Assembly (NCBI GenBank): GCA_016302005.1
Contig: JAEDOK010000020.1
Coordinates: 1 to 17,688 of the forward strand
Source: Oscillospiraceae bacterium
Lineage (GTDB): Bacteria; Bacillota_A; Clostridia; Oscillospirales; Oscillospiraceae
Length of the DNA stretch: 17,688 bases
Direction: 5' to 3'
In this document: piece after piece, positions 2,085 through 14,508 of the stretch
Numbering within the stretch: the stretch's first letter is position 1
Layout: each line of letters starts with the position of its first letter
The notes under the pieces: model-generated
Told to the model about the DNA's origin: nothing
The model's database searches: none
The model's input: only the letters and a program-made list of their open reading frames with translations
Made by a program: the position numbers and the translations under genes

Positions 2085-2237
2085 TGTAGGGCGGGGACAT
2101 AAATTTGCGCGCGGACGGGAGTTGCTGCACGAGATTGCCACGACCAGTGTGCGCACTGATCTCGCAATGACATGCTTGGGAAGATTGTACGCAGCTGGTA
2201 GTTCCTGCACCGGCTTAGGACATGTCCCCGCCCTACA
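2085..2237. repeat. Modular palindromic repeat, A-type with nested B hairpin (copy 1)
   Basis: A 153-bp element lies between mutS and the CPBP gene. Its termini are a perfect 16-bp inverted repeat, TGTAGGGCGGGGACAT at 2085-2100 and its complement at 2222-2237. Inside lies a B hairpin (2131-2171, ATTGCCACG ... CTCGCAAT with inner arms CAGTG/CACTG). The right half carries the shared core GGTAGTTCCTGCACCGGC near 2200-2217. No transposase and no obvious target-site duplication is seen. It looks like a non-autonomous MITE-like or palindromic element. It would lie in the mutS-CPBP transcript if these genes are co-transcribed. Confidence 0.85.
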
Positions 2238-3009: not shown

Positions 3010-5055
3010 ATGCCAAAAATTCAACAGCTTTCGCCCCATGTGGCGGATCTGATCGCAGCGGGCGAGGTCGTGGATCGTCCCGCAGGCGCGGCAAAGGAGC
3101 TGGTCGAAAACGCCATTGACGCGGGGGCGAAAAATATTACCGTGGAAATACAAAACGGCGGCATGACCTTTTTGCGGGTGACCGACGACGGCTGCGGCAT
3201 GAGCGCCGAGGACGCGCCCACCGCCTTTTTGCGCCACGCGACCAGCAAGCTCCGCGAGGCGAGCGACTTGGAGGCGATCCACACCCTCGGCTTTCGAGGT
3301 GAGGCGCTGGCGGCGATCTCTGCCGTTTCCAGAGTCGATCTGATGACGAAAACCGCCGATGCGGAATTCGGCACGGGGCTGCATTTGGACGCCGGTATCG
3401 TGACCGAACAGGGCGAGGTCGGCTGCCCGAACGGGACGACGATCATCGTCCGGGACCTGTTTTATAACACGCCTGCGCGCATGAAGTTTATGAAGCGCGA
3501 TACTGTGGAGGCGTCTGCGGTTCTGAGCATGATGCAGCGTCTCGCCCTCGCGCACCCGGAGATCGCCTTCCGCGTCCTGAGAGACGGAGAGGAGCAGCTT
3601 CACACGGCGGGGGACGGGCGGCTTTACAGCGCGGTCTATGCCGTGATGGGCAGAACGACCGCCCAGGAGATGACCGAGGTGGACAGCCGCTATGAGAAAT
3701 ACGCGCTCTCAGGTTATGTTTCCAAGCCGAACGCCTCCCGGGGCAACCGCAGCAATCAGATATTCTTTGTCAACGGACGCCATGTGCGCTCAAAGTCCAT
3801 GACCGCCGCCCTTGAGGAGGCGTACCGCAACGCGCTGATGGTCGGACGCTATCCGTCCTGCGTGCTGCATCTGACGATGCCGGAGCATTTGGTGGATGTC
3901 AATGTCCATCCCGCCAAGACCGAGGTGCGGTTTTTGAACGAGCGCGATGTGTTTGACTGCATCCGGTACGGCGTACAGGGCGCTTTGGAGCGGGCGAGCG
4001 GACGGGTGCCGCTGCAGCTGCCCCACTCTGAAAAGCCGAGGACGCAGACGACTGCCGTGCCGAAGCAAAATTTTTTCCGTCAGATGAGCGCCGAGGATTA
4101 CCGCGCCTTCGCCGCCGTGATGCAGGACAGCGCAAGGGCTTCCGTAAATGCAGACAAGATTGCTGCGCAGTCTCGCAATGACAACGTAGGGCGGGGACAT
4201 GTCCCTGCCGTCCGCGAAGCGGCAGACGGTACGGGGAAACAAGCTCGTACAGATGCGGCAGTTCCTGCACCGGCTTATGACTGTCCCCGCCCTACAGTGG
4301 AGGGTGACGATGTAGGGGCGGCTATCAGCCGCCCGCGAGGAACGGAAGGCATCGCTGCAACGGATGAGATTGCCACGGCGCAAGCGCCTCGCAATGACAG
4401 TATAGGGGCGGATGAGATTGCCACGGCGCAAGCGCCTCGCAATGACAGTGTGGAAGCGGAAGCGCAGCAGGAGCTGCCGTTGCAGACGCAATCTTACCGC
4501 GTGGTTGGCGAGGTGTTGGACACCTATATTATTGTCGAGCAGGACAGAGAGGTCTTGCTCATCGACAAGCACGCGGCGCATGAGCGGATTCTCTTTGAAA
4601 AGCTCCGCAGAAGCACGGAACCCATTATGTCCCAGCTTCTGCTGGAACCAATATTATGTCAACCAGAGCGGGAGGAGGCGGCGATCCTGACGGAAAACGC
4701 CCGTCTTCTGAACGAGTGCGGCTTTGAGGTCAGCGACTACGGCGACGGGACGCTTGCCGTGCGCCGCATTCCCGCAGAGCTGGACGCAGCCGACGCGGAG
4801 AGCGCCCTCAATCAGCTTGCGAGCAACCTTTTGAACGGCAAGCGCACCGACCCCGCCGCCCTGCGGGACACGCTGCTGCACACGGTGGCTTGCAAAGCCG
4901 CAATCAAGGGCGGCAGGCACACCGATGCCCGCGAGCGGGAGGTCTTGGTGAAGCAGGTGCTCTCCGACCCGTCGCTCAAATACTGCCCCCACGGCAGACC
5001 GATCGTTGCCGTGTTGACCGCTTCGCAGTTGGAGCGGAGCTTTAAGAGGGCGTGA
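3010..5055 (+). CDS. mutL: DNA mismatch repair protein MutL (endonuclease type) with repeat-derived linker
   Basis: MutL links mismatch recognition by MutS to strand incision. The N-terminal GHKL ATPase shows ELVENAID (catalytic E30), DDGCGM (59-64) and GFRGEAL (94-100). The C-terminal domain has the nicking-endonuclease motif DKHAAHERILFE from D519 (family pattern DQHAxxExxxxE), ACKAA near C628, CPHGRP near C659 and a terminal FKR. It should therefore nick DNA itself, as expected where MutH is absent. The start is fixed by GGAGGTGA just before ATG 3010. Residues about 380-480 are encoded by palindromic repeats, including a 16-codon tandem duplication (ADEIATAQAPRNDS repeated). All of them keep the frame, and the conserved domains on both sides are intact, so the protein is probably functional. 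At 681 residues it is not clearly outside the family range. The stop overlaps the translation start region of miaA. Confidence 0.97.
   Translation: MPKIQQLSPHVADLIAAGEVVDRPAGAAKELVENAIDAGAKNITVEIQNGGMTFLRVTDDGCGMSAEDAPTAFLRHATSKLREASDLEAIHTLGFRGEALAAISAVSRVDLMTKTADAEFGTGLHLDAGIVTEQGEVGCPNGTTIIVRDLFYNTPARMKFMKRDTVEASAVLSMMQRLALAHPEIAFRVLRDGEEQLHTAGDGRLYSAVYAVMGRTTAQEMTEVDSRYEKYALSGYVSKPNASRGNRSNQIFFVNGRHVRSKSMTAALEEAYRNALMVGRYPSCVLHLTMPEHLVDVNVHPAKTEVRFLNERDVFDCIRYGVQGALERASGRVPLQLPHSEKPRTQTTAVPKQNFFRQMSAEDYRAFAAVMQDSARASVNADKIAAQSRNDNVGRGHVPAVREAADGTGKQARTDAAVPAPAYDCPRPTVEGDDVGAAISRPRGTEGIAATDEIATAQAPRNDSIGADEIATAQAPRNDSVEAEAQQELPLQTQSYRVVGEVLDTYIIVEQDREVLLIDKHAAHERILFEKLRRSTEPIMSQLLLEPILCQPEREEAAILTENARLLNECGFEVSDYGDGTLAVRRIPAELDAADAESALNQLASNLLNGKRTDPAALRDTLLHTVACKAAIKGGRHTDAREREVLVKQVLSDPSLKYCPHGRPIVAVLTASQLERSFKRA
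4153..4452. repeat. Cluster of palindromic repeats inside mutL (A, B and C modules)
   Basis: In order this holds: a degenerate B hairpin (about 4157-4192); an A-type element from GTAGGGCGGGGACA near 4186 to TGTCCCCGCCCTAC at about 4282-4295, with the core AGTTCCTGCACCGGC; a C-type half element (4311-4335, stem GGGCGGCT/AGCCGCCC); and two B hairpins (4366-4398 and 4414-4446). The last two lie in a perfect tandem repeat of 41 bp with a 48-bp period (4361-4401 and 4409-4449). All are read in frame as MutL linker. The A element is translated in the same phase in which the ileS-upstream copy is open (VGRGHVPA.REAADGT in both). Confidence 0.88.
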
Positions 5056-5984: not shown

Positions 5985-6327
5985 AATCGCGGATTTACTC
6001 TAAGGGAATTAGCCCAATGGATTGCCACGGGCGCATGCGCCCTCGCAATGACACGGAAAGGAAATTGGTACGCAGTCGGTAATTCCTGCACCGGCGCGCC
6101 GAGTCGTCGCGCCCTACGGAGGGGTGCGGTTGATGGATTTTGAATCCGTGCGAAGCACACCACAGTCATTCACCCTTAGCCCTTAGTCCAATCAATTGAC
6201 GCGCATATTCGCCCCATATAGCGGGCAAAAATTATTTCATGGTTTCCGACGGGAGATTCGGGAATTCGACAAGGACAAGCCATTACAATAGGAGTATCCC
6301 GAAAACAAGAAAAGAGGTACTCAAAAA
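5985..6327 (+). other. miaA-hfq intergenic region (343 bp)
   Basis: No gene is seen here. The first third is the composite repeat described separately. The remaining 200 bases become AT-richer toward hfq. Weak promoter-like sequences occur: TTGACG at 6196-6201 with TATAGC at 6217-6222 (spacer only 15), and a TACAAT hexamer near 6283-6288 without a good -35 box. hfq may therefore have its own promoter, but neither candidate is convincing. No clear terminator follows miaA. Confidence 0.5.
6014..6118. repeat. Modular palindromic repeat, B hairpin fused to A-type right half (copy 3)
   Basis: The left part (6019-6052) is a B hairpin with ATTGCCAC/CTCGCAAT and a perfect 14-bp inner palindrome GGGCGCATGCGCCC at 6029-6042. 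The right part carries GTACGCAGTCGGTAATTCCTGCACCGG, cut here to its core TAATTCCTGCACCGGC, and ends in GTCGCGCCCTAC near 6115, the usual A-type right terminus with a changed inner sequence. The matching left A terminus is absent, so this is a composite or eroded copy. It lies in the miaA-hfq gap. The outer limits are approximate. Confidence 0.75.
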
Positions 6328-10014: not shown

Positions 10015-10267
10015 AACCGAATAGCATGATGCGTCGATGGGGACGAGTAGCCCGTTTGCCGCGTGCAGAGAGCTGTCGCTTGGTGCGAGACAGCCGCGGC
10101 GGCGTGTGAATATCACCCCGTAGCACCCCGCCTGAAGTTATTTCGTAGGGTGGGACGGCTTGCGCCCGTTACCGCGCACGAAAGTGCCCTCTCCGCAAAA
10201 GGAGGGGGAACAAGAGTGGTACCGCAGAGCGCGTCTCTGTCTCTTGATGAGACAGAGACGTTTCTTA
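10015..10267 (+). promoter_or_regulatory. T-box riboswitch, isoleucine-specific (upstream of ileS)
   Basis: This is a leader RNA that senses uncharged tRNA-Ile. Stem I contains GGGACGAGTAG near 10040-10050, an AGAGAGCTG ... GGTGCGAGACAGC distal region at about 10068-10094, and the specifier loop GTGAATATCACC. The specifier codon is ATC (Ile, 10112-10114), followed by the usual purine. The T-box sequence AAGAGTGGTACCGC is at 10212-10225, one change from the usual AGGGTGGNACCGC. Its TGGT (10217-10220) can pair with the ACCA end of tRNA-Ile, whose discriminator base is A. The terminator follows at once. The Ile specifier matches the ileS gene downstream. The 5' limit is approximate and the promoter was not identified. 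Confidence 0.93.
10232..10267 (+). terminator. T-box intrinsic terminator
   Basis: A perfect 12-bp stem, CGTCTCTGTCTC (10232-10243) with GAGACAGAGACG (10249-10260), a 5-base loop, and the tail TTTCTTA. It directly follows the T-box sequence. Binding of uncharged tRNA-Ile should favour the competing antiterminator and allow ileS transcription. Confidence 0.92.
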
Positions 10268-10283
10268 TTTTGTGGATATTTGC

Positions 10284-10397
10284 TGTAGGGCGGGGACATG
10301 TTCCCGCCGACCGCGAAGCGGCAGACGGTACAGACGAACAGGTTTGTACGCAGTCGGTAGTTCCTGCACGCGGCTTATGACATGTCCCCGCCCTACA
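10284..10397. repeat. Modular palindromic repeat, A-type (between T-box and ileS)
   Basis: This is the cleanest A-type copy, 114 bp. The terminal inverted repeat TGTAGGGCGGGGACATGT (18 bp) is perfect at both ends (10284-10301 and 10380-10397). Inside are a CCGC-GAA-GCGG mini hairpin near 10311 and the core GGTAGTTCCTGCAC near 10353. It lies 17 bases after the T-box terminator tail and about 35 bases before the ileS ribosome binding site, so it becomes part of the ileS 5' leader when the terminator is read through. No TSD is evident. Confidence 0.88.
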
Positions 10398-10441: not shown

Positions 10442-13237
10442 ATGGATTACAAGAACACCATTATCACACCGAAAACCGATTTTCCCATGCGTGCGGGGCT
10501 GCCCACGCGGGAGCCGCCGATGCTGGAGCATTGGAACAAGATCGACATCTATGCCCTTTTGCTCGAAAAGAATAAGGGCAAGCCCGCCTTCGTCCTGCAC
10601 GACGGCCCTCCCTTCTCCAACGGCGACATCCACATGGGTCACGCGCTGAACAAGACCTTGAAGGACTTCATTGTCCGATCCTACGCCATGCGCGGCTACT
10701 ACACGCCCTTCACGCCCGGCTGGGACAACCACGGTATGCCCATTGAGTCCGCGATCATTAAGAAAAACAAGCTCAACCACAAGACCATGCCCGTGACGGA
10801 GTTCCGCTCCGCGTGCGAAGCCTTTGCCGAGGATTTTATCCAGCGGCAGATGGCAGGCTTCCGCCGCTTGGGCGTCATTGGCGACTGGGCGCATCCCTAC
10901 CGCACGATGGACAAGCATTTCGAGGCCGAGGAGGTCAAGGTCTTCGGCGAGATGTACCGCAAGGGCTATATCTACAAGGGCTTAAAGCCCGTCTACTGGT
11001 GCCCGAAGGACGAGACGGCGCTGGCAGAGGCAGAGATCGAGTATCAGGACGATCCCTGCACCTCCATCTATGTCAAATTCGCCCTTAAGGAAACGCAGGG
11101 CAAAATGAACACCGAGAACACCTATGTTGTCATTTGGACGACGACCCCCTGGACCCTGCCCGGCAACCTCGCCATCGCCTTAAACGCCAACGAGAGCTAT
11201 GTTCTCGTGGACGCGAAGAACGGCGAGCGCTATATCGTCGCGGAGGCGCTGCTGGAAAAAACGATGAAAGCGGGCGGCATCGGGGAATATGAAATTCTCG
11301 AGCGTCACGAGGGCAAATTCTTCGAGTATATGACCGCGCAGCATCCCTTCCTGGAGCGAGACTCGCTGCTTGTCTGTGCGGACTATGTTACGATGGACTC
11401 CGGCACGGGCTGCGTCCATACCGCTCCCGGCTTCGGCGCGGACGACTATCAGACATGCCGCCGCTACAAGATCGACCTCATCGTCCCCGTCGACGACCGC
11501 GGCATCCAGACCAAGGACGCGGGCAAGTATGCGGGCATGCGCTATGATGTCTCCAACGAGCAGATCGTCACCGACCTGAAGGAGTCCGGCGCACTGTTCG
11601 CCTCCGAGGTCTTTACCCACAGCTATCCGCACTGCTGGCGCTGCAAGAGCCCGATCATTTTCCGCGCCACGCCGCAGTGGTTCTGCTCCGTCGAGTCCTT
11701 CAAGGACGAGGCGGTCGCCGCCTGCGAAAATGTCCAGTGGCTGCCCGCCTGGGGCAAGGACCGCATGGTCGCCATGATCCGCGACCGCGCCGACTGGTGC
11801 ATCTCGCGCCAGCGCCGCTGGGGTCTGCCGATCCCCGTGTTCTACTGCAAGGACTGCGGCAAGCCCGTCTGCACCCCCGATACGATTGCGCATATCTCAA
11901 AGCTCTTTGACGAAAACGGCTCGAACATCTGGTTCGACAAGGACGCGATGGAGCTTGTGCCCGAGGGTCTTTCCTGCCCGCACTGCGGCGGCAAAGCCTT
12001 CGACAAGGAGACGGACACCCTCGACGGCTGGTTCGACTCCGGCTCGACCCACATTGCCTCCCTGCGCCGCGAGCAGCCCGACCTCTGGCCGTCTACGATG
12101 TACCTCGAGGGCGCGGATCAGTACCGCGGCTGGTTCCAGTCGAGCCTGCTGACAAGCGTCGGCGCACTGGGACAGGGCGCACCCTTTGCCAAGTGCCTCA
12201 CCCACGGCTGGACGGTGGACGGCGAGGGCAAGGCGATGCATAAGTCCCTCGGCAACGGCGTCGATCCCGCCGACCTCATCCGCGATTTCGGCGCGGACAT
12301 CGTGCGCTTGTGGGCGGCTTCGGCGGACTACCGCGCGGATGTGCGCTGCTCCAAGGAGATCTTCAAGCAGCTCTCGCAGAACTATCTGAAATTCCGCAAC
12401 ACCGCCCGCTACTGCCTCGGCAACCTTGACGGCTTCGACGCGAATCAGCTTGTCAAGCCGGAGGAAATGCTCGAGCTTGACCGCTGGGCGATGACCAAGC
12501 TGAACGGCCTCATTCGCACCGCGTTTGAAGCCTACGACAATTACGAATTCCATGTTCTGACCCACGCGATCAACGATTTCTGCGTGGTGGAGCTGTCGAA
12601 TTTCTATCTGGATATCCTCAAGGACCGTCTCTACTGCGAGGCAAAGGACGGGCTGAAGCGCCGCAGCGCCCAGACTGCGCTGTTCCTGATCGTGGACGCG
12701 ATGGCGAAGATGTTCGCGCCGATTCTGCCCTTCACCTGCGACGAGATCTGGCAGGCGATGCCCCACCGTGACGGCGACGACACGCGCAACATCGTCCTCA
12801 ACGAGATGGCAAAGCCCTATGACGCGTATGCCCTCAGCGACGCGGAAATGGCGAAGTGGGACACCCTCATCGCCCTGCGCAGCGACGTCAACGGCGTTTT
12901 GGAGACCGCCCGCGCCGACAAGCGCATCGGCAAGGCGCTGGAAGCCCATGTCGCCCTGTATCCGACGGACGAGACTGCAAAGACCTGCCTTGAGACGGTC
13001 AAGGACATGAATCTTGCGGAGCTGTTCATCGTCTCGGATGTACTGCTCGAAAGCGAGAAGCCGCAGGAAGCAAGCGTCTGCGCCCATGGAGAGAACTTCC
13101 CCGGCATGCTGATCGAGGTCCGCAACGCCGAGGGCGTCAAGTGCCCGCGCTGCTGGATGCACTCGACTGAGGCGAACGAGGAAGGACTCTGCCCGCGCTG
13201 CGCGGCAGTTGTCGCGGAGATGGATCTCGGCGAATGA
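10442..13237 (+). CDS. ileS: Isoleucine--tRNA ligase IleRS
   Basis: This is a class I aminoacyl-tRNA synthetase of 931 residues that charges tRNA-Ile. The HIGH motif is HMGH (64-67) in GPPFSNGDIHMGHALNKT. The KMSKS motif is present as AMHKS at about 598-602, followed by LGNGVDP. The editing (CP1) domain lies between and includes TTTPWTLPGNLA and GTGCVHTAPGFGADDY. A C-terminal zinc finger has CPRCW and CPRCA. The start is ATG 10442, preceded by GGAGG at 10432-10436; an upstream in-frame ATG at 10382 lies inside a repeat and lacks a ribosome binding site. The T-box with an Ile specifier supports both identity and regulation. The stop overlaps the next gene by 4 bp (ATGA). Confidence 0.98.
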   Translation: MDYKNTIITPKTDFPMRAGLPTREPPMLEHWNKIDIYALLLEKNKGKPAFVLHDGPPFSNGDIHMGHALNKTLKDFIVRSYAMRGYYTPFTPGWDNHGMPIESAIIKKNKLNHKTMPVTEFRSACEAFAEDFIQRQMAGFRRLGVIGDWAHPYRTMDKHFEAEEVKVFGEMYRKGYIYKGLKPVYWCPKDETALAEAEIEYQDDPCTSIYVKFALKETQGKMNTENTYVVIWTTTPWTLPGNLAIALNANESYVLVDAKNGERYIVAEALLEKTMKAGGIGEYEILERHEGKFFEYMTAQHPFLERDSLLVCADYVTMDSGTGCVHTAPGFGADDYQTCRRYKIDLIVPVDDRGIQTKDAGKYAGMRYDVSNEQIVTDLKESGALFASEVFTHSYPHCWRCKSPIIFRATPQWFCSVESFKDEAVAACENVQWLPAWGKDRMVAMIRDRADWCISRQRRWGLPIPVFYCKDCGKPVCTPDTIAHISKLFDENGSNIWFDKDAMELVPEGLSCPHCGGKAFDKETDTLDGWFDSGSTHIASLRREQPDLWPSTMYLEGADQYRGWFQSSLLTSVGALGQGAPFAKCLTHGWTVDGEGKAMHKSLGNGVDPADLIRDFGADIVRLWAASADYRADVRCSKEIFKQLSQNYLKFRNTARYCLGNLDGFDANQLVKPEEMLELDRWAMTKLNGLIRTAFEAYDNYEFHVLTHAINDFCVVELSNFYLDILKDRLYCEAKDGLKRRSAQTALFLIVDAMAKMFAPILPFTCDEIWQAMPHRDGDDTRNIVLNEMAKPYDAYALSDAEMAKWDTLIALRSDVNGVLETARADKRIGKALEAHVALYPTDETAKTCLETVKDMNLAELFIVSDVLLESEKPQEASVCAHGENFPGMLIEVRNAEGVKCPRCWMHSTEANEEGLCPRCAAVVAEMDLGE

Positions 13238-13833
13238 CGGTGCTTCTTGCCGTCGCGGCAGGTCTTGCGGCGCTGCTCCTCGGACGCGCCGCCGTGAGCG
13301 CGGTCAATCTGCGGAAAAACCGCAGGGTCGTGGCAGAGGGACTTCTCCTCGACCAGCGCGCCGCGCCGTGTTCCGCGTTGCGTTACGGCTGTTTCCGCGC
13401 AAGCTATAACGGCTGCGGAGTCGTTGCGACCTATAATGCGGCGCGGCTCCTCGGTATGAGCGTCCACCCGGCAGAGATCGTCCGCAGCTTTGAGCTGCGC
13501 GGCGCATTGCTGTTTGGGGCGTTCGGGACGCTCCCCTTTGCCCCGCGCCGCTTTCTGCGCAAACGCGGCTGCAGGGTCATAACGAGCCGACGACAAAAGG
13601 ACTTTGACCGCCTTGCAAAGCTGCACAAGGTGTCGATCCTGTGGTATTTCCACCGCCGTGGGGCGCATTTTGCCGCGATCCGATGGGACGGTACCGGTTT
13701 TGTCGGATACAATGTCTTTTCCGACAAAGGCACACCCGTCCTGCTCGGCGCGTCGCTGTCTGACTTCCTGCAAAAGCGCCGCTATTTCCTTCCGCTGCTG
13801 TTTTGTGTTGATCCGCGCTCGAATAGAATATGA
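13234..13833 (+). CDS. Putative membrane-anchored C39-like cysteine peptidase
   Basis: This is a 199-residue protein with an N-terminal hydrophobic segment (about 2-18), probably a membrane anchor or uncleaved signal. The soluble part carries a papain-like triad pattern as in the C39/C39-like fold: C61 in YNGCGVVATYNAARLLG, H145 in GAHFAAIRW and N160 in GYNVFSDKG, with DFLQKRRYFLPLLF at the end. C39 domains cleave leader peptides at double-glycine sites, but many stand-alone C39-like proteins have no known substrate, and no bacteriocin or transporter gene is visible here. The start ATG overlaps the ileS stop (ATGA), so translation is probably coupled to ileS and transcription controlled by the Ile T-box. 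It is followed by a terminator. The family call rests on motif order and is moderate; no function is proposed. Confidence 0.6.
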   Translation: MTVLLAVAAGLAALLLGRAAVSAVNLRKNRRVVAEGLLLDQRAAPCSALRYGCFRASYNGCGVVATYNAARLLGMSVHPAEIVRSFELRGALLFGAFGTLPFAPRRFLRKRGCRVITSRRQKDFDRLAKLHKVSILWYFHRRGAHFAAIRWDGTGFVGYNVFSDKGTPVLLGASLSDFLQKRRYFLPLLFCVDPRSNRI

Positions 13834-14423: not shown

Positions 14424-14508
14424 TGTAGGGGCGACTATCAGCCGCCCGTCGGTACGAACAAACATTTCGGTAGTTCCTGCACGCTGGCGGCTGATAGCCG
14501 CCCCTACG
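14424..14508. repeat. Modular palindromic repeat, C-type
   Basis: An 85-bp element between the convergent DUF6512 and arcA genes. The arms begin GTAGGGGCGACTATCAGCC (14425) and end GGCTGATAGCCGCCCCTAC (to 14507): a 22-bp inverted repeat with one mismatch. The right half contains the same core GGTAGTTCCTGCACGC (about 14469-14484) seen in the A-type copies, which links the two types. Sequence just upstream (TTTGTACGCACGAG, 14397-14410) also resembles an A-type interior, so the element may be a composite. A half copy of the C arm lies in mutL at 4311-4335. Confidence 0.82.

Follow-up and report, generated by a model that had tools for sequence, protein, structure and literature searches.

Palindromic repeats read in frame within the MutL linker of a Faecousia-like clade of Clostridia, and their probable origin as inserted mobile elements

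The window, by which we mean the whole stretch of 17,688 nt of DNA that was analysed, contains a gene for an endonuclease-type MutL of 681 aa, in a neighbour order that we take to be mutS, a CAAX-protease-like membrane gene, mutL, miaA, hfq and, further on, ileS; Pfam backs the identities of MutL and the tRNA synthetase only. The protein has the GHKL ATPase, DNA_mis_repair and MutL_C domains and the endonuclease motif of a MutL, with Pfam matches to HATPase and DNA_mis_repair extending up to residue 326 and the match to MutL_C covering residues 500-637. Between these domains lies a run of palindromic repeats in the order B-A-C-B-B, at 4156-4447 of the window (MutL residues ~383-480), through which the frame is open with no stop. 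An earlier note on this DNA had placed repeats in frame within mutL at 4153..4452, which is borne out with the edges correct to within a few bases, and it had also described A, B and C modules between the genes of the window, where they are now found in four places. The features, all on the plus strand, are listed here with the evidence for each.

2086..2236, plus strand: intergenic A element with a nested B module, between mutS and the next gene (repeats, core sites, alignment)
3010..5055, plus strand: mutL, endonuclease-type MutL, 681 aa (ORF; Pfam PF01119, PF08676, PF13589, PF02518)
4156..4183, plus strand: B module 1, in frame, 9 bp shorter than the copy in the sister genome G020 (alignment to G020 mutL)
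4186..4295, plus strand: A module, a head-head dimer of GTAG-tagged palindromes, GTAGGGCGGGGACATGTCCC...GTCCCCGCCCTAC, round the common core GTTCCTGCAC
4312..4334, plus strand: C module, a single GTAG-tagged palindrome, GTAGGGGCGGCTATCAGCCGCCC, predicted translation VGAAISRP (repeat search, 16-mers)
4366..4399, plus strand: B module 2, predicted translation (D)EIATAQAPRND (repeats, 16-mers, motif scan)
4414..4447, plus strand: B module 3, a tandem copy of module 2 with a 48-bp period; G020 has other sequence here
4564..4599, plus strand: DKHAAHERILFE, intact, which we take to be the MutL endonuclease motif (alignment)
6020..6117, plus strand: intergenic B module, core and a tagged end of a different hairpin type, between miaA and hfq
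10285..10396, plus strand: intergenic A element of 112 bp, upstream of ileS (repeats, alignment, folding)
14425..14507, plus strand: intergenic C head-head dimer with core (repeats, core sites, folding)

Preservation of the frame and of the catalytic motif, which had also been claimed, can be confirmed, as the ORF has no stop and an alignment of 29 MutLs keeps DKHAAHERILFE (residues 519-530) with 11 of 12 positions invariant and I527 almost invariant. A repeat search pairs the A copy in mutL with an intergenic one (4186-4270 and 10285-10369, 82% over 85 nt) and the C copy with another (4311-4335 and 14424-14448, 96%), and it finds the B tandem at 4361-4408 and 4409-4456 (48 bp, 92%). The predicted translation of the A module runs VGRGHVPA...CPRPT. 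When 16-mers with at least four copies in the first 1.1 Mb of G020 are counted, their starts within mutL are confined to 4185-4433, and every 50-base bin of mutL outside 4160-4459 has a count of two or less.

A GTAG REP is recognised by a terminal unpaired GTAG adjoining a stem-loop of 5-13 bp; in its predicted fold C has an unpaired GTAG and an 8-bp stem, and the ends of A consist of GTAG and a near-perfect 20-nt palindrome. Both are often found as head-head pairs about one common core (...GGTAGTTCCTGCAC), to which, at the 70 of 272 core sites inspected, the hairpins A, C, E and B are variously joined. The window and G020 together have 50 head-head dimers with core, made of opposite REPs with their tags outward as in REPIN/BIME elements; two of these are in mutL and the other 48 are 85-131 nt long. 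To judge from sequence, A and C are constructed like the GTAG-tagged REPs of Di Nocera et al. (2013, PMC3733652), often as REPIN/BIME dimers, and the finding is richer than the earlier note both in this and in the whole-module linker differences between near-identical proteins that are described below. The A module of mutL is predicted to fold at -62 kcal/mol (z -7.0, as for its intergenic counterpart), the intergenic C dimer reaches z -8.5 and the single C in mutL z -3.2, whilst for the two B copies folded the z values, +0.4 for module 1 and -0.95 for module 2, show no gain over shuffled sequence. In the mutL RNA the predicted A hairpin could slow translation. The TGTC tag and AT-starting stem of B fit those of CGTC REPs, which have a CGTC/TGTC tag, an 8-9 bp stem starting AT, a loop of 4-5 bp and a CCA-like tail, but the length of B varies between 33 and 42 nt, its tail is CTC, and the inner stem and tail do not fit cleanly, so that B is a candidate for this class. 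Upstream of ileS a T-box leader (Rfam RF00230, 120.9 bits) occupies 10025-10247, and the intergenic A element then follows at 10285.

G020 is a close sister genome of ~2.1 Mb, of which 1.83 Mb (non-N) was covered; it aligns with the window in long pieces of 86-93% nt identity, and MutL residues 1-379 are 98% identical. These 1.83 Mb hold 1,181 motif matches (B 497, core 347, A 227, C 101 and E 9) against a single match in reversed G020, so that the modules cannot be put down to chance, and the matches form 368 clusters, 288 of which have more than one. The modules in mutL are thus identical in kind to hundreds of copies elsewhere in the sister genome, and A and C are high-copy and mostly intergenic there, their intragenic copies in G020 being found only in mutL and transposase genes. 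When 300 family genomes were drawn, G020 being left out of the draw, the A hairpin (at most one mismatch) was found in one, G001, with 19 matches and none in the control; and of the 15 genus genomes in which a MutL was matched, only G001 and G020 match the linker elsewhere as well, at 10 and 30 places. The window and G020 also differ after ileS, where a 199-aa ORF at 13234-13833 has no counterpart in the aligned G020 stretch, which has ~96 bp instead.

The linkers of 120 listed MutL homologs were compared by tblastn with G020 DNA in which mutL had been masked. In the closest rows, P0001-P0034, 24 of 34 linkers match between 5 and 70 dispersed places and the other ten match none; the P0001 linker matches 30 places, which cover 96% of it, and P0014 and P0016-P0019, which have no match, retain VGAD-type peptides by eye. 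Only 14 of the 86 linkers of P0035-P0120, mostly proline/alanine-rich ones, match G020 at all, each at 1-4 places, and the MutL domains gave no matches to the masked genome in the 70 rows shown. The earlier note had named conservation of this linker in distant MutLs as the observation that would speak against its proposal, and this was looked for and not seen, P0035-P0120 reaching at most 4 places. The shorter linkers that it asked for were found: the spacing of the conserved motifs MSAEDYR and QQELPL has a median of 107 aa (66-174) in all 34 closest rows, against 43.5 aa (26-81) in 20 of the 25 rows of P0036-P0060, the other five being without QQELPL as written. In 35 of the 60 rows of P0061-P0120 the median is 106, and linker length alone is therefore not diagnostic. 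Both motifs flank the repeats and are kept, hence the modules sit in the free middle of the linker.

In a tree of the domains (61 rows, the truncated P0034 being excluded) all recognisable module-bearing rows fall in one clade of 33 with support 100/99, and MutLs outside it are without the modules. Within the clade 23 rows have modules, seven have decayed or few, and three that are nested in it (P0020-P0022) gave no match in tblastn, although a C-like peptide persists in P0022; four changes of the label 'modules' are required on this tree, which means that gain and loss are both in play, and no clean empty site with a target duplication was seen. One could suppose the reverse direction, namely that an ancestral MutL linker gave rise to the repeats, pieces of it having escaped and spread between genes. 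No supporting point was found for this, and we regard it as scarcely credible: palindromic dimers with conserved ends occur outside genes, transposase genes have GTAG REPs in and around them, MutLs outside the clade lack the sequence, and B halves are plentiful in genus genomes with MutL linkers that are, by eye, free of modules (60 matches in G017, 115 in G022). Since genomes with 60-115 B halves have such linkers, we likewise rejected the view that such repeats must inevitably settle in mutL.

Proteins whose domains are identical or nearly so differ in their linkers by whole modules. P0014 and P0019 have no difference in 514 domain positions, yet their linkers are 142 and 112 aa long, exactly 30 aa apart; P0008 and P0012 again differ at 0/514, with linkers of 175 and 128 aa; P0012 and P0013 differ at 1/514, with linkers of 128 and 184 aa; and P0001 and P0003, also at 1/514, have A in opposite orientation and differ in the absence of B1. 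The linkers of the window and G020 have a common skeleton, on which G020 has an extra C, B1 differs by 9 bp, A has the opposite orientation, the C hairpin letters are exchanged at the same site, and B is duplicated in the window; at the ileS site an A element in the window is matched by a C-type element in G020. Since A carries the same palindrome at either end, inverting it leaves a good part of the terminal peptides in place and can leave the frame open whilst the inside is replaced; on inversion the window copy as it stands would hit a stop and the G020 copy would not. The head-head dimers are not specially built for insertion: among the 48 outside mutL, 31% combine a length that is a multiple of three with some open frame, shuffled sequences doing so in 29% of cases, and for the frame used in MutL the values are 17% and 21% against 8% and 10%.

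Such differences could in principle be produced by the assembly of high-copy repeats, a known hazard, through mis-joining inside mutL in metagenomes, and the loci do come from draft assemblies, many of them metagenomic. We nevertheless consider an artefact very improbable. In the window, in G020 and in G001 alike the frame stays open, when random joins would presumably break it about two times in three. P0001 is present on two contigs, whilst P0007, P0015 and P0033 represent clusters with 14, 20 and 18 members, formed at 90% identity and so not necessarily alike in their exact linkers; the A copy in mutL, moreover, is just 82% like the closest copy in the window.

The proposal that other ORFs might contain the same translated modules met with a nearly negative answer, in that mutL stands alone in the 1.83 Mb of G020 once transposase genes are set apart. 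ORFs of G020 and the window that read through each cluster with at least 30 codons on either side were collected, and codon usage was scored on both sides; of the 113 read-through ORFs, which cross 97 clusters, only mutL has a codon signal on both sides, in G020 (0.20/0.23) and in the window (0.20/0.26), the next-best ORF reaching 0.04 without a Pfam match. The survey can miss genuine cases, as a Y1 transposase frame that reads through a C REP scored -0.03, and the claim is limited accordingly to there being no other non-transposase gene, by codon signal, in 1.83 Mb. Several candidate hosts were considered and set aside. An AsnA gene, a PUA/methyltransferase gene and others had come from loose matches (up to 4 mismatches or a short B pattern) attributable to chance, and they are absent from the listed read-through ORFs obtained with stricter motifs. 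Three long open frames of G020 and G001 match the A peptide: one of 395 aa (searched as 381 aa) has no Pfam match, one of 1096 aa runs off the contig end and is antisense to ORFs on the other strand, one of which is presumably RsgA-like, and one of 722 aa is not among the best 22 of the 113 read-through ORFs. L228 (698 aa) and L232 (238 aa) have no Pfam match, and read-through ORFs of MatE, PNPase and phage-portal type have a codon signal on one side only, for which a repeat upstream of the true start is the simplest explanation.

Transposases of Y1 type (PF01797) are found in 9 of 17 genus genomes, with three matches in G020 (one under the cut-off); G001, whose genome is incomplete, yielded none. 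In G020, GTAG REPs lie in frame in two of the three, one of these being a frame of 136 aa and the other a copy containing a stop; the REP is of C type in C110 and C-like, with the same stem and a different loop, in C10, and the strongest transposase (C92) has no modules within 1.5 kb. A 269-aa frame of G014 has three such REPs in frame (VGADDSVRP twice, and GGQSRPPL after the HUH motif), which likewise have the C stem in common and a different loop, and in these transposases the REP is read in the frame that C uses in MutL (VGAAISRP, VGADIIRP). REP-bearing RAYT genes have C-type or C-like elements, an A module having been seen at none of the transposase genes. RAYT transposases are the likely mobilisers of the repeats, and presumably supplied the copies in mutL. 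The Y1/RAYT-type frames with a GTAG REP in frame include L122:1414-2220 and L132:16534-17112, both on the minus strand, and L194:7028-7435, the peptides being VGADDSVRP before and GGQSRPPL after the HUH motif, and VGADIIR and CGRIISAPT in L194. Homologs of the G014 protein match the REP peptides by regular expression in 114 of the 120 listed (3035 found), a list biased by the presence of these peptides in the query itself, and the in-frame REP is possibly an undescribed feature of Firmicutes RAYTs.

The domains of MutL are under strong purifying selection and the comparable repeat stretch, C and B2, is not: between the window and G020 dN/dS is 0.026 in the N-terminal domain (330 codons) and 0.088 in the C-terminal domain (187 codons), 0.072 in linker residues 331-380, 0.28 in the 12 codons that follow the repeats and 0.79 in C and B2, where 34 codons are collinear. 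The repeat stretch is predicted to be disordered, AlphaFold2 giving a pLDDT below 50 for residues 380-492; the model, built from 29 sequences and with a mean of 66, is only moderate, because values below 50 are also given to residues 1-22 and 74-103 and to shorter parts of the ATPase domain. It is very likely, in our judgement, that mobile palindromes were inserted in the MutL linker of one Faecousia-like clade of uncultured gut Clostridia and have been tolerated and reshuffled there. GTAG-tagged REPs (A and C, often as REPIN/BIME-like dimers) and a TGTC-tagged palindrome (B) would have entered the middle of the linker in an ancestor of this clade, where a disordered linker that tolerates changes in length and sequence would have let frame-keeping copies survive. 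Frame preservation in the protein database is partly survivorship, in that frame-broken MutLs would rank below the 120 listed. The modules would since have been reshuffled by duplication, loss, exchange of hairpin variants and reversal of A between the palindromes at its two ends, presumably through recombination or gene conversion, whilst the ATPase and endonuclease domains would have stayed under strong purifying selection.

The repeats may instead have made the linker a selected contingency site, where gain, loss or inversion of modules tunes mismatch repair by altering the length and chemistry of the linker. The presence of modules across the clade, in mutL alone in the genome portion read and with faster change than in the domains, would suit this, as would the importance of the linker in other MutLs: yeast MutL-type linkers shortened or scrambled in both subunits ablate repair (PMC6393296), and a shortened linker in E. 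coli MutL loses roadblock bypass in vitro (PMC6902014). Against it, the comparable repeat stretch looks almost neutral next to conserved domains, and E. coli MutL minus 40 of its 100 linker residues has no mutator phenotype (PMC6902014), and we think it unlikely. The same doubt attaches to the fuller proposal that the linker is a dedicated, self-renewing variable region of one host gene, into which a RAYT/REP system, with palindromes that are also read as protein within the transposase gene itself, would keep feeding in-frame modules, linker length and charge thus varying from strain to strain and tuning mismatch repair and hence the mutation rate. Neutral tolerance, in which the encoded peptide is presumably put up with and not selected, is favoured over tuning as the best reading.

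This kind of event is not new, as in-frame REPs, in repair genes among others, are already known from other phyla. Intragenic GTAG/CGTC REPs have been described in frame in genes of DNA repair and synthesis (uvrABCD, recBCD, DNA polymerase I and dnaE2), encoding stretches that reach 43-82 aa, with flexible linkers named as tolerant sites and a tuning or mutator role speculated upon (Di Nocera et al. 2013, PMC3733652); the main text of that paper makes no mention of MutL, MutS, Firmicutes or Clostridi*. The repeats described here are like those in their GTAG tag, hairpin, head-head dimers, clusters and in-frame insertion in a repair gene; they differ in being in one gene, mutL, in place of several gene classes, and in a strain-level turnover at that one gene which is absent from the sections of PMC3733652 compared. 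The parallel with Rickettsia palindromic elements (RPEs) drawn in the earlier note is upheld by the in-frame presence of repeats in mutL of the window, G020 and G001, both being palindromic repeats in frame in housekeeping genes, and RPE-4/6 are CGTC REPs (PMC3733652), to which module B is similar in tag. RPEs number 44 copies in R. conorii, almost half within ORFs of unrelated genes (PMC10969869), whereas here mutL alone is the host, and of a composite array. Their effect on protein evolution is called unexplored in a 2024 MITE review, which finds a similar process conceivable for other prokaryotes (PMC10969869), and a palindromic coding repeat in other microbes is the subject of PMC2996958. 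REPIN/BIME and RAYT systems share with the present one the genome-wide head-head palindromic dimers and the Y1 transposases in the genome, but here several hairpin types are freely combined on one common core and some transposases contain a REP read in frame within their own gene.

Our literature search found no report of MutL with translated palindromes, nor of such repeats in Clostridia, nor of such exclusivity or turnover; what is new in the literature searched is therefore the gene (mutL) and the group (Clostridia), with an unusual exclusivity and speed. The interpretation of the repeats as a source of protein sequence in a Clostridial MutL linker, offered in the earlier note, gains support from the clade restriction and the module-level differences, and mobile palindromes would, on this sequence evidence, have become protein in Clostridia within a gene that guards the genome. 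Since modules differ between proteins with identical domains, there is a natural series of MutLs in which nearly only linker length and composition vary, and what the linker needs (length, composition or neither) is thereby directly testable, as is the earlier conjecture that mutators arise from REPs in repair genes. The nesting of repeats goes further in some members of the series, with an additional unit, DLLNQRLCQRGQ...PPQAALANVP, inside the MutL A module of P0033 (the L001 mutL linker), P0025 and P0031, and a similar peptide, PPQAALANVP, in the G020 ORF L130:4937-6388.
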